Under the pieces are notes generated by a model. That model had not been told where the DNA came from. It saw only the letters and a program-made list of their open reading frames with translations, and did no database searches. DNA of 64,000 bases, from positions 496,001 to 560,000 of the forward strand of contig JAGMUV010000005.1 of the NCBI GenBank assembly GCA_020744425.1, read 5' to 3'. How positions within the stretch are numbered: position 1 is the stretch's first letter; every line of letters begins with the position of its first letter. Source of the stretch: Dactylonectria macrodidyma. Taxonomy: Eukaryota > Ascomycota > Sordariomycetes > Hypocreales > Nectriaceae. A program made the position numbers and the translations under genes. Positions 25,777 through 61,521 of this stretch are shown one piece after another.

Positions 25777-28701
25777 ATGTCTACTCTTGACGCTCCAGCA
25801 GTATCCCAACGAGATCAATCCCGAAGCCGCACTCGAAGCCCTAGCCCAAGCGATCAATTGCGTCCTACGAAGCGGCCGCGACCGAGCCGACTGCCTAGAT
25901 TCAGCCCACCGCTCCTTGCAAATCGGCCACCTTCAGCGAGTAGTATAGCGACAAGTATAGAGCAACACTACGGGATTGGAGATCAAGATGCATTAGGGAA
26001 CCTTTTTGCATCCTATCCACAGACCTTCTCATCCTTCCCGCAACCCCATGGCTCACAGGGACTCCATGAACCGTCATGGGAGCTTCGGTCTGATTACGAA
26101 ATATACCTCCGGAACGACTTCCCATCTGGACGGAGACGGTCACAGCGAATAAGGGCATTAATACCAGGCCCTGAGGTTGACCCTTTGCCTCCCTCGCCTC
26201 CTACACAGCCATCAACCCAGCTATCAACTCAATCCCCATGTGTAACCAGGGAAGGGTTTGAATCTGCATTGCAAATTGTCCGTGGGGTTATCGGAGAAGG
26301 CCAGAAGCTCACAAAAGAACTGACTGAATCATATGAGCGAGTCCATGAATGGCGACAAAGATGGGGTTGGTCGCCGCTCAGCTCAGATGCTTATGAATCC
26401 CCTCCGCCATACTCACCACGACGCACTACCCCAACTCCCGAGGTTAATACCTCCCCTTCGACCCAACAATCCTTATCTTCATCGCCTGTCCCAGATCAGA
26501 TTTCGAACCCGCCGATCCCAGGGGACCCAGCAGTGTCAGCTGAGGATCTCTTCAATAGGATAAACGAGTTTGCAAAGGGTCATGGATTCGGCATCATTCG
26601 ACGGAATACACACTCCTATAAAGGTCGAAAAATCCGATACTCAATACAATGCGATCGATTTGGGGACCCTAGACCCGCTAGAGGCGCAGGTATCCGTCAA
26701 CGGAGATCACGCAAATGTGGTTGTCAGTGGCAGGTTATTGCAGAGGCGTTGGAGGAGGGCAGATGGTTCTTGCGACAGCACCCAGACCCTAAACACAGCC
26801 AGCATAACCACGGTCCCAGCATTGGGCCATCTGCCCACCCATCCCATCGCAGGGCTACTACACCTATTAGGGCAACAGTTGAATCAACAAGCCGCCGGGT
26901 TGCAATCCGGGCTCGCGATGTACGGGCTGTTGTACAGGAGCAACATCCCGAGTCCGTGTTCACCCAGAGAGATATCTATAATGCCAGGGCTCGTATCAAC
27001 CGGGACAAGCTTAATGGCTATTCGCCTACTGGAGCACTTGTTAAGCTGTTTGATGAGATGGAGATCCCCTACCTGGTGAGGTGGGCAGATGATAACCCTA
27101 ACCGCCTAATTGGCCTTGTCTGGACCTTCCCTTACTGCATTAGAATGTGGAAGCGGTTCCCTGAGGTTATCAGCTTCGACAATACGTACAATACCAACCG
27201 CTTCAAGCTGCCCTTATTCCAGGCGACCGGACAAACCTGCCTGGGATCTATCTATAATGCCGCCTTCGGTATAGTAGATAACGAGAGGCGTGAAGGCTTC
27301 CAGTTCCTTGCAGATAGTATACGGCAGCTAGCAGAGCAAAACTCCATCCGACAGCCAGATGTTATTATTACCGATTTTGACAACTCAATGAAGGCCGCAC
27401 TGAACGACCAATTCCCCAAGGTGCAGCAGCAGCTCTGCATCCATCATATCAACTCTAATGTCCTTCTTAGGGCTAAGCAGAAGTGGATCAAGAGCCCCAG
27501 CAGCAGCGATACCAGCAGCAGCGATACAGACTGTCCTGAACCGCAGCCACAGACTGGGCTGAACCCTCAAGACAAACAGCGAATTCATGCGCCACCTACC
27601 AATGATATCCCACATACCTACCGAGGGGTTCTTATGATGTGGAGACTTGTGGTGTTTGCCGAGACCGAGGAGGCACATGATAAAGCATGGATAAACCTTT
27701 GCAAGGAGTTTAATGATCAGCGGGCTATTCTGCGATACCTTCATGGTACCTATATGCCAGTGAGGGCGCAATGGGCGCGCTGTTTCACCCGGCAGTATCG
27801 CAACTTCGGTATCCGCGTCACCTCAGGCACGGAAGCCAGCAATAATAACATTAAGAGCTATCTCCTCAATGGTATGAGCCACCTCTATCGGCTGGTTGAG
27901 GCAATGCAGGATATGATGAGGGATCAGGAGCGAGACTTTACGCATGCCTGTGCTGAGGATGAGGTTCTTACCTCTCACAACTATATCGGCTCAAGCTCAG
28001 AGTACCTAGGCGAGCTGAAAACAGTGATCTCAGCGAAAGCTCTGGGGCTGATCACGAAGCAGTATCGGCTGGCGAGAAAGGCGATGCCGACAGGGAAGAA
28101 TCCAAACCCCAGCCCTCTTGGCGCTTGCGATGATAACTGTTCGGTCTCTATTGAGCTTGGGATCCCTTGCTACCATACGGTTTTCCAAAAGCTAGGCTCT
28201 GCTACATCCTTTACTAAATGGGAGGTCCATCAACGCTGGCGGCTGCGAGAGTCAACTTCACGGGATCCATACCGACACATCCTCGACCCAAAGATCGTCA
28301 CATCTCTCCGTGGCAGGCCTAAGAACACTACGCAAGCTGTGCCGGCAAGGCTGGCTATTGAGGCTAGCAGCCAGCCTGGGGCTCCCACCAGGAGCCAACC
28401 CGATCGTACATCAGGTCGCAGGCGGGGTCAACCACCAGGCAGTCGAAACAAGTCGACACTGGCTAGGCTTACACAAAAAGCAAGCCAGCAGGCCAGTAGC
28501 CAAGCTAGCAGCAATGCTAGTGGTGCGGCAACACCCTCAAGCCAAGTTGTGACGCGTAGCCAATCGGCGAACCTTGGAGTTGGAAGAACTACGGGCTTAC
28601 GTGCTAGCGGACGAAGGACGCAGCCGAGTGTTCGGAGGCAAAGGAGTCAATGGGAGCTAATTGGGAGCGATGAAGATACAATCCGTGTTATAGTTGATTA
28701 G
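25777..28701 (+). CDS. MULE transposase with FAR1-like and AT-hook-like motifs
   Basis: A single exon of 974 residues with ATG at 25777. Residues 256-350 resemble a FAR1-type zinc-binding DNA-binding domain (CDRFG, KCGCQW, HSQHNH). The MULE DDE transposase core carries Asp 468 (SFDNTYNTNRFKLPL), Asp 533 or 535 (VIITDFDNSMKAAL, followed by QQLCIHH) and Glu 686 (SGTEASNNNIKSYL). A SWIM-like Cys/His segment lies near 784-800 (GIPCYH). AT-hook-like motifs follow at 845-850 (RGRPKN) and 880-892 (GRRRGQPPGSRNK). All catalytic residues are present and the frame is intact, so the element is probably autonomous. It acts in the nucleus by cutting at the TIRs. Confidence 0.9.
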   Translation: MSTLDAPAVSQRDQSRSRTRSPSPSDQLRPTKRPRPSRLPRFSPPLLANRPPSASSIATSIEQHYGIGDQDALGNLFASYPQTFSSFPQPHGSQGLHEPSWELRSDYEIYLRNDFPSGRRRSQRIRALIPGPEVDPLPPSPPTQPSTQLSTQSPCVTREGFESALQIVRGVIGEGQKLTKELTESYERVHEWRQRWGWSPLSSDAYESPPPYSPRRTTPTPEVNTSPSTQQSLSSSPVPDQISNPPIPGDPAVSAEDLFNRINEFAKGHGFGIIRRNTHSYKGRKIRYSIQCDRFGDPRPARGAGIRQRRSRKCGCQWQVIAEALEEGRWFLRQHPDPKHSQHNHGPSIGPSAHPSHRRATTPIRATVESTSRRVAIRARDVRAVVQEQHPESVFTQRDIYNARARINRDKLNGYSPTGALVKLFDEMEIPYLVRWADDNPNRLIGLVWTFPYCIRMWKRFPEVISFDNTYNTNRFKLPLFQATGQTCLGSIYNAAFGIVDNERREGFQFLADSIRQLAEQNSIRQPDVIITDFDNSMKAALNDQFPKVQQQLCIHHINSNVLLRAKQKWIKSPSSSDTSSSDTDCPEPQPQTGLNPQDKQRIHAPPTNDIPHTYRGVLMMWRLVVFAETEEAHDKAWINLCKEFNDQRAILRYLHGTYMPVRAQWARCFTRQYRNFGIRVTSGTEASNNNIKSYLLNGMSHLYRLVEAMQDMMRDQERDFTHACAEDEVLTSHNYIGSSSEYLGELKTVISAKALGLITKQYRLARKAMPTGKNPNPSPLGACDDNCSVSIELGIPCYHTVFQKLGSATSFTKWEVHQRWRLRESTSRDPYRHILDPKIVTSLRGRPKNTTQAVPARLAIEASSQPGAPTRSQPDRTSGRRRGQPPGSRNKSTLARLTQKASQQASSQASSNASGAATPSSQVVTRSQSANLGVGRTTGLRASGRRTQPSVRRQRSQWELIGSDEDTIRVIVD

Positions 28702-60824: not shown

Positions 60825-60963
60825 TCCCCGGTGGCGCAATTGGCTGTGAGTACAACCGAGCTTCTGCGACACCAACACATATACTGACTAGACCCGAAGA
60901 GCGCGTTCGACTGTTAAACAGCATTAAATCGAGAGGTTGATGGTTCGAGCCCATCCCGGGGAG
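60825..60963 (+). tRNA. tRNA-Asn(GTT) with D-loop mRNA-type intron and anticodon-loop intron
   Basis: Acceptor stem TCCCCGG (60825-60831) pairs perfectly with CCGGGGA (60956-60962), discriminator G at 60963. D-stem GCGC at 60834-60837 and 60901-60904. Anticodon stem TTCGA/TCGAG with loop CTGTTAA, anticodon GTT. An 11-nt insert at 60917-60927 follows A37, the standard tRNA intron site. T-arm GATGG-TTCGAGC-CCATC. A box TGGCGCAATTGG (60832-60843), B box GGTTCGAGCCC (60942-60952), and a T7 run at 60982-60988 suits pol III termination. A second insert of 54 nt (60846-60899) interrupts the D-loop; removing both leaves 74 nt, a normal tRNA length. It could instead be a pseudogene, but every stem is intact. 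Confidence 0.8.
60846..60899 (+). other. Spliceosomal-type intron-like insert in tRNA D-loop
   Basis: 54 nt beginning GTGAGT, with ACTGAC at 60883-60888 as branch-point consensus 12 nt before the terminal AAG. Exact removal converts the D-loop to AATTGGCTA. Length and signals match the mRNA introns of neighbouring genes. Confidence 0.65.
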
Positions 60964-61521
60964 TTAATACTCTCCCATCCATTTTTTTCTTTCTTTTTTT
61001 CATTTTTTGCATGCCATGGTCAGTTCATGCGGTGGAACTCGTGTAGCAGGTGGAAGCAAAGGGGCGGGTACGCATTGAGGATCATCTGATGATCGTGTCC
61101 AATCTGAATGGCGGCTGTATTGCATGAATCAAGAGTTCCCATGGGAACAGGCTGTGTGCGCTACAGTCTCTTCAGCTACGTCTGGACATGTACGATACGC
61201 GTCACCGTGATTTGTGTCACAAGCGTTGTGTCTCGTTTACTGGTGCTGGGAATCACTGAAGAGGCCCTTGCAGACTCATGTCCAACTCTCATTGTGTTGT
61301 TTCCAGAGTATATGGTTACTGCCCGCTCCAGCAAGTGCGAGTTGTTGGCATATTTGGAAAAAAAAAAAAAAAAAAGGGGGCCCAGATCGGTCTGAGATAA
61401 TGAGGCATCAAGGGTATCATTGAACTATTGTTTCGCGTCATAATATCATGGACTCGTACCGACTCCAATCCCCGCCATTCAACTCGAGAGTGAGCCAATT
61501 GCGGCTACCCCATCACCCTTC
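60964..61521. other. Gene-free stretch after the tRNA
   Basis: About 560 bp with T-runs at 60982-61010 and an A-run of about 18 followed by G5 near 61359-61380. No gene supported. Confidence 0.4.
60982..60988 (+). terminator. Pol III terminator T-run
   Basis: Seven consecutive T about 20 nt after the tRNA 3' end, with further T-runs following. Confidence 0.65.

Follow-up and report, generated by a model that had tools for sequence, protein, structure and literature searches.

In the genome of this fungus we found ten tRNA genes, three for tRNA-Asn and seven for tRNA-Phe, whose D-loops are interrupted by short GT-AG inserts, and we consider it very likely that these inserts in nuclear genes are U2-type spliceosomal introns. 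It is also probable, judging from the gene sequences, that tRNA-Phe is made only via the spliceosome, with U2-type introns placed at one D-loop site in at least two isotypes. The data comprise a 64,000-nt stretch of one contig (the window), which contains one of the interrupted tRNA-Asn genes, and the genome as a whole (77 Mb, 77 contigs).

The window gene, a tRNA-Asn(GTT), spans positions 60825-60963 and by direct reading holds two inserts, one of 54 nt in the D-loop and one of 11 nt after A37 (Table 1). A sequence-only reading of this DNA had located both, and had assigned the motifs GTGAGT, ACTGAC and AAG to the longer one; on rereading, the coordinates and motifs proved exact, and its description of intact stems, A and B boxes and a T7 run was likewise confirmed. 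The acceptor stem reads TCCCCGG/CCGGGGA, and the sole exon difference from the common intact tRNA-Asn sequence is a paired change, G7-C66 for A7-T66, the 5' exon matching the uninterrupted copies on contig C77 save for A7 to G. Exact removal of the D-loop insert yields GGCT/AGCGCG (slashes mark junctions throughout), as in the intact copies. The branch-like A of the insert lies 12 nt before its 3' end, and an earlier AG (in CTAG), whose last base is 8 nt from the 3' end, follows close after that A. ARAGORN reports no tRNA in the unspliced gene or when the 11-nt insert alone is removed, and searches of the whole window by ARAGORN and by Rfam at gathering score returned no tRNA. Once 60846-60899 is taken out, with or without the 11-nt insert, ARAGORN calls tRNA-Asn(gtt), in keeping with the claim that excision of both inserts leaves a tRNA-Asn(GTT).

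Table 1. Features of the interrupted tRNA-Asn(GTT) gene, in window coordinates.
Feature	Position	Strand	Basis
5' exon: acceptor 5' strand, D-stem 5' strand, D-loop to position 20a	60825..60845	+	direct reading
A box TGGCGCAATTGG, intact, upstream of D-loop insert	60832..60843	+	direct reading
Predicted D-loop GT-AG intron, 54 nt, gtgagt...actgac...gaag	60846..60899	+	reading; exact removal
Middle exon: A21, D-stem 3' strand, anticodon stem and loop to A37	60900..60916	+	reading, ARAGORN
Anticodon GTT	60913-60915	+	direct reading
11-nt insert aacagcattaa after A37 (canonical tRNA-intron position)	60917..60927	+	direct reading
3' exon: A38, anticodon stem, variable loop, T arm, acceptor 3' strand	60928..60963	+	reading
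B box, intact, 3' of D-loop insert	60942-60952	+	direct reading
Discriminator G	60963	+	direct reading
T7 run, Pol III terminator-like	60982..60988	+	direct reading

A pattern search and a DNA search of the genome agree on six tRNA-Asn loci, three of them intact and three carrying a D-loop GT-AG insert. The pattern search gave 24 matches, of which the tRNA-Asn loci account for the six with 0-1 mismatch; at the loci of the 18 matches with 3 mismatches, model R1 returned only one weak partial match (L022). All three intact copies are on contig C77. The other two interrupted genes, Asn2 and Asn3, with D-loop inserts of 51 and 56 nt, are on the same contig and sit between two intact copies within 4 kb (C77 961422-965237; L078 6423-7741, L079 165-238). 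All three Asn inserts occupy one bond, GGCT/GTRAGT...AAG/AGCGCG, and by eye their removal has a single register and restores the intact GGCTAGCGCG exactly. For Asn2 and for Asn3 there is an intact copy on C77 with the same exon sequence, again by eye, and in one of these pairs both genes have G-C in place of A-T in the T stem, a paired change. ARAGORN labels one of the interrupted genes 'tRNA-Cys (aca)'. With three intact tRNA-Asn copies available, the fungus could do without the interrupted ones.

The tRNA-Phe genes present a different case. The first interrupted tRNA-Phe was recognized by eye in a genome scan that paired an A box with a downstream GTAAGT. A search with the tRNA-Phe anticodon arm, allowing up to three mismatches, then defined seven loci, all of which are exact matches and all of which are interrupted. 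The inserts of these tRNA-Phe(GAA) genes are 53-55 nt long and lie in 7/7 cases at GTTGGG/GT...CAG/AGAGCG, before A21, at a bond equivalent to that in tRNA-Asn; ARAGORN calls Phe(gaa) only after the D-loop insert is removed. The exons are identical at all seven loci, and two of the seven introns are identical to each other, which leaves six distinct introns that are 58-96% alike. All seven loci (L109-L112, L102) also share a G5-A68 mismatch in the acceptor stem, and three of the genes form a tandem array with 217-bp spacing that includes the two identical introns (L111, C45:2457250-2457960).

No uninterrupted tRNA-Phe gene, with or without an anticodon-loop intron, was found in the genome by the anticodon-arm pattern or by a BLAST-type search. 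When the joined 73-nt tRNA-Phe sequence was used as query at E values up to 10, the search gave 11 rows: seven exon-2 matches (100%), three exon-1 matches, and a single non-Phe match (86%) to a tRNA-Cys locus (L077). Cytosolic tRNA-Phe is essential. Since no uninterrupted copy was found, the interrupted Phe genes must mature, unless an intact copy was missed; such a copy may be absent from the assembly, if the assembly is incomplete, or may have escaped the searches. Intron removal is apparently obligatory for tRNA-Phe. The central proposal of the sequence-only reading, that an mRNA-type intron interrupts a tRNA gene transcribed by Pol III, gains much support from nine more genes, from a spread over two isotypes and from the finding of no uninterrupted tRNA-Phe.

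The D-loop inserts occupy ten loci on five contigs and comprise nine distinct sequences of 51-56 nt. All nine begin with GTNNGT and end with AG. In eight, the A of a CTRAC motif lies 12-13 nt before the 3' end; the exception is Asn2, which has TATAAC and lacks CTRAY. The Phe introns combine a 5' GTAAGT, GTATGT or GTACGT with CTAAC 12-13 nt from the end and a 3' CAG, and all three Asn introns end in AAG, an ending less usual than YAG. The AAG ends, the early AG of the window copy and the missing CTRAY of Asn2 count against the spliceosomal reading. The full set of GTNNGT, CTRAY near the end and AG is present in 8/9 inserts and in 0/20,000 shuffles of each, a comparison that is meaningless for Asn2, which lacks CTRAY itself. 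The longest T run in the nine distinct inserts is 3. Chance, or a lone oddity of the window gene, is rejected by the nine further interrupted loci.

We also rejected the idea that the inserts form one mobile intron family. The cores of the Asn introns are no more alike than shuffles, which were as good in fractions of 0.16, 0.80 and 0.83 for the three pairs, and their likeness is limited to the signals; this pattern fits either an old gain with free divergence since then, or gains that were separate. Of the Asn-Phe pairs, 2/15 fell below 0.05, as may happen by chance. Across the five of six distinct Phe introns included in this comparison, the one on C11 gave shuffle fractions of 0.05-0.70 against the four others, and 4/6 pairs among those four look related (shuffle fractions 0 to 0.01).

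Introns of the same genome provide a context for these signals. mRNA-type introns are known in fungal U6 snRNA genes, and the sequence-only reading had invoked them as a Pol III precedent; that precedent holds within this genome, as both U6 loci found carry GT-AG introns. The U6 family search located them on C34 at about 3697000 (L113/L176) and on C56 at about 1255200 (L114/L177), both as partial matches below the gathering score. Each has two introns in the ACAGAGA region, in the order AACGATAC, intron GTGAGT..CTAAC..CAG, AGAGAAGAT, intron GTAAGG..CTAAC..CAG, TAGCATGGCC. Joined by eye, the exons give what we take to be the usual U6 core; the 3' exon of the C56 copy is changed. The U6 introns contain B-box-like sequences (GTTCGAACC and CGTTCGATTCC or GCTCGATTCC), one has a T5 run, and they resemble the D-loop inserts in length and signals. 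These loci suggest that Pol III transcripts are probably spliced in this fungus anyway. Similar signals occur in six introns of window protein genes, judged by protein continuity, which are 51-82 nt long with the 5' ends GTAAGT, GTAAGT, GTAAGG, GTAAGA, GTACGC and GTGAGG; as splice-like signals and length had entered into the choice of candidates, these six show likeness, not frequency. Among the proteins are a fungal-specific transcription factor domain and an RTA1 domain, which together with the intron style fit a filamentous ascomycete. At 25777-28701 the window also has a long open reading frame that encodes a MULE transposase domain.

To look beyond Asn and Phe, the genome was scanned for A boxes joined to the 5' splice sites GTAAGT, GTGAGT, GTATGT and GTACGT. 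These scans gave 18, 32, 29, 13 and 14 matches, and the first four include all three Asn and seven Phe loci; an 11-nt form of the A box was scanned with GTAAGT only. Stretches were fetched for all matches save six of the 26 non-Phe ones in the 29-match scan. Among the fetched stretches no further interrupted isotype was seen by a T-arm filter or by model R1. The filter, which detects all ten known genes, was applied to 89 A-box matches and gave hits in the Phe gene L102 and in two others that look like chance (L093, L145), and model R1 on 72 of these stretches gave one weak match only (L171, 11.6 bits, E 0.076). A pattern of a 22-base Phe exon plus 5' splice site, searched for contaminant relatives, had no match in viral_contigs or genome_contigs. 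At another locus, a tRNA that ARAGORN names tRNA-Arg (gcg) has a long canonical-position insert of about 50 nt (L053, C3:1365743-1365874); by eye it is probably tRNA-Ser(TGA).

The location of the inserts invites comparison with ectopic tRNA introns of the algal and archaeal kind at position 20/21, which the tRNA endonuclease cuts at a bulge-helix-bulge and tRNA ligase joins. Position 20/21 is a known ectopic-intron site in archaea and a junction in Cyanidioschyzon, one 2014 review giving it as a junction site, and many Guillardia introns have no clear motif. Of the nine distinct precursors Asn2 alone scores well in a bulge-helix-bulge test, with the best score (4, 2, 2) and 26 of 1000 shuffles as good. 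The other eight are no better than shuffles, 396-861 of 1000 being as good by a scorer that had no positive control, and a bulge-helix-bulge across the D-loop junctions was rejected for want of consistent support. Endonuclease processing would, moreover, leave the GT-AG ends, the branch motif and its spacing unexplained, and the nine canonical-position inserts tested in this genome, from six isotypes and in five registers, have GTNNGT..AG in none. These data make an endonuclease origin of the D-loop inserts very improbable. Still harder to credit are unrelated insertions, such as transposon footprints or assembly errors, in dead copies. Another 2014 review states that insertions in the D or T arm of eukaryotic tRNA genes mostly affect a single gene among many synonymous ones, such copies being supposed pseudogenes, and names nucleomorphs and Cyanidioschyzon as exceptions; the inserts described here recur at one bond in ten loci on five contigs, carry splice motifs, are removed with exact restoration and affect 7/7 Phe loci, which makes this account scarcely tenable.

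For the window copy the matter is less settled. As three intact tRNA-Asn copies exist, a pseudogene remains an option there, and the argument for obligatory splicing rests on tRNA-Phe. A degenerate gene, in which a once-working D-loop intron was spoiled by the 11-nt insert while intact copies supply tRNA-Asn, is possible though on balance unlikely. The window copy is the only one of the six tRNA-Asn loci with an anticodon-loop insert, which is absent from the other five and is flanked, by eye, by a TTAAA direct repeat; the earlier AG after the branch-like A also favors degeneration. By rule, the endonuclease requires position 32 to pair with intron position -3. The sequence-only reading had placed the 11-nt insert at the normal position, and its position is indeed canonical, but with the standard cut C32 faces a T at -3 and is unable to pair; by eye, a CTG/CAG pairing is possible, and the predicted fold is ambiguous. 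Set against degeneration are the intact stems, A box, B box and T7 run, the paired nature of the lone exon change, and the 12-14 nt inserts that tRNA-Lys genes of the same genome also have after A37. The window Asn copy might nonetheless be weak or dead.

If the D-loop inserts are spliceosomal introns, as we favor, maturation could proceed along the following lines. With an intact A box 5' and an intact B box 3' of the insert, Pol III can start as usual, and would transcribe the whole interrupted gene from these boxes. Next, the intron that separates positions 20/20a and 21 would be excised through GT-AG branching chemistry by the spliceosome, for which the U6 transcript of Pol III is apparently another substrate in this fungus; the joined exons would then fold as a normal tRNA and be trimmed. 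In the window copy, the tRNA endonuclease would remove the 11-nt insert separately. At the gene level, both Asn and Phe form a predicted cloverleaf after removal and have A and B boxes, and the window gene has its T7 run.

Full-text literature searches, whose scope took in a minority of subscription papers, found no description of a nuclear tRNA gene that contains a spliceosomal intron. Fungal U6 introns are alike in being GT-AG spliceosomal-type introns in a short Pol III gene, and are present in the same genome; they differ in that the host here is a tRNA and that every tRNA-Phe copy found is interrupted. Rogers et al. are said to have described, in 1993, an mRNA-type intron in fungal nuclear 18S rDNA, which is similarly an mRNA-type intron in a non-mRNA gene, but one in an rRNA transcribed by Pol I and not in a tRNA. 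Canonical 37/38 introns likewise interrupt tRNA genes and are removed before use, and the window gene has an insert at that position too, but they differ from the D-loop introns in position, length and signals, and the nine tested here lack GT-AG. The ectopic introns and junctions of Cyanidioschyzon merolae, the Guillardia theta nucleomorph and archaea affect the same part of the tRNA, at 20/21 in archaea and C. merolae. Those of C. merolae and archaea are tied to a bulge-helix-bulge and endonuclease, whereas the signals here are GT, CTAAC and AG, and many ectopic introns of G. theta have no defined bulge-helix-bulge.

Genes of this kind are missed or misnamed by standard tRNA finders, as illustrated by ARAGORN, which missed the window gene and miscalled one Asn gene as Cys. 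With identical exons, the intact and interrupted Asn copies stand side by side, so that intron gain and loss can be compared directly. If the only detectable tRNA-Phe genes do carry spliceosomal-type introns, translation in this fungus would be tied to the spliceosome, and the genome would offer a natural system for the splicing of Pol III transcripts and for intron gain in non-coding genes; and if tRNA-Phe is solely spliceosome-made, the translation of all Phe codons would depend on a Pol III transcript being spliced like an mRNA.
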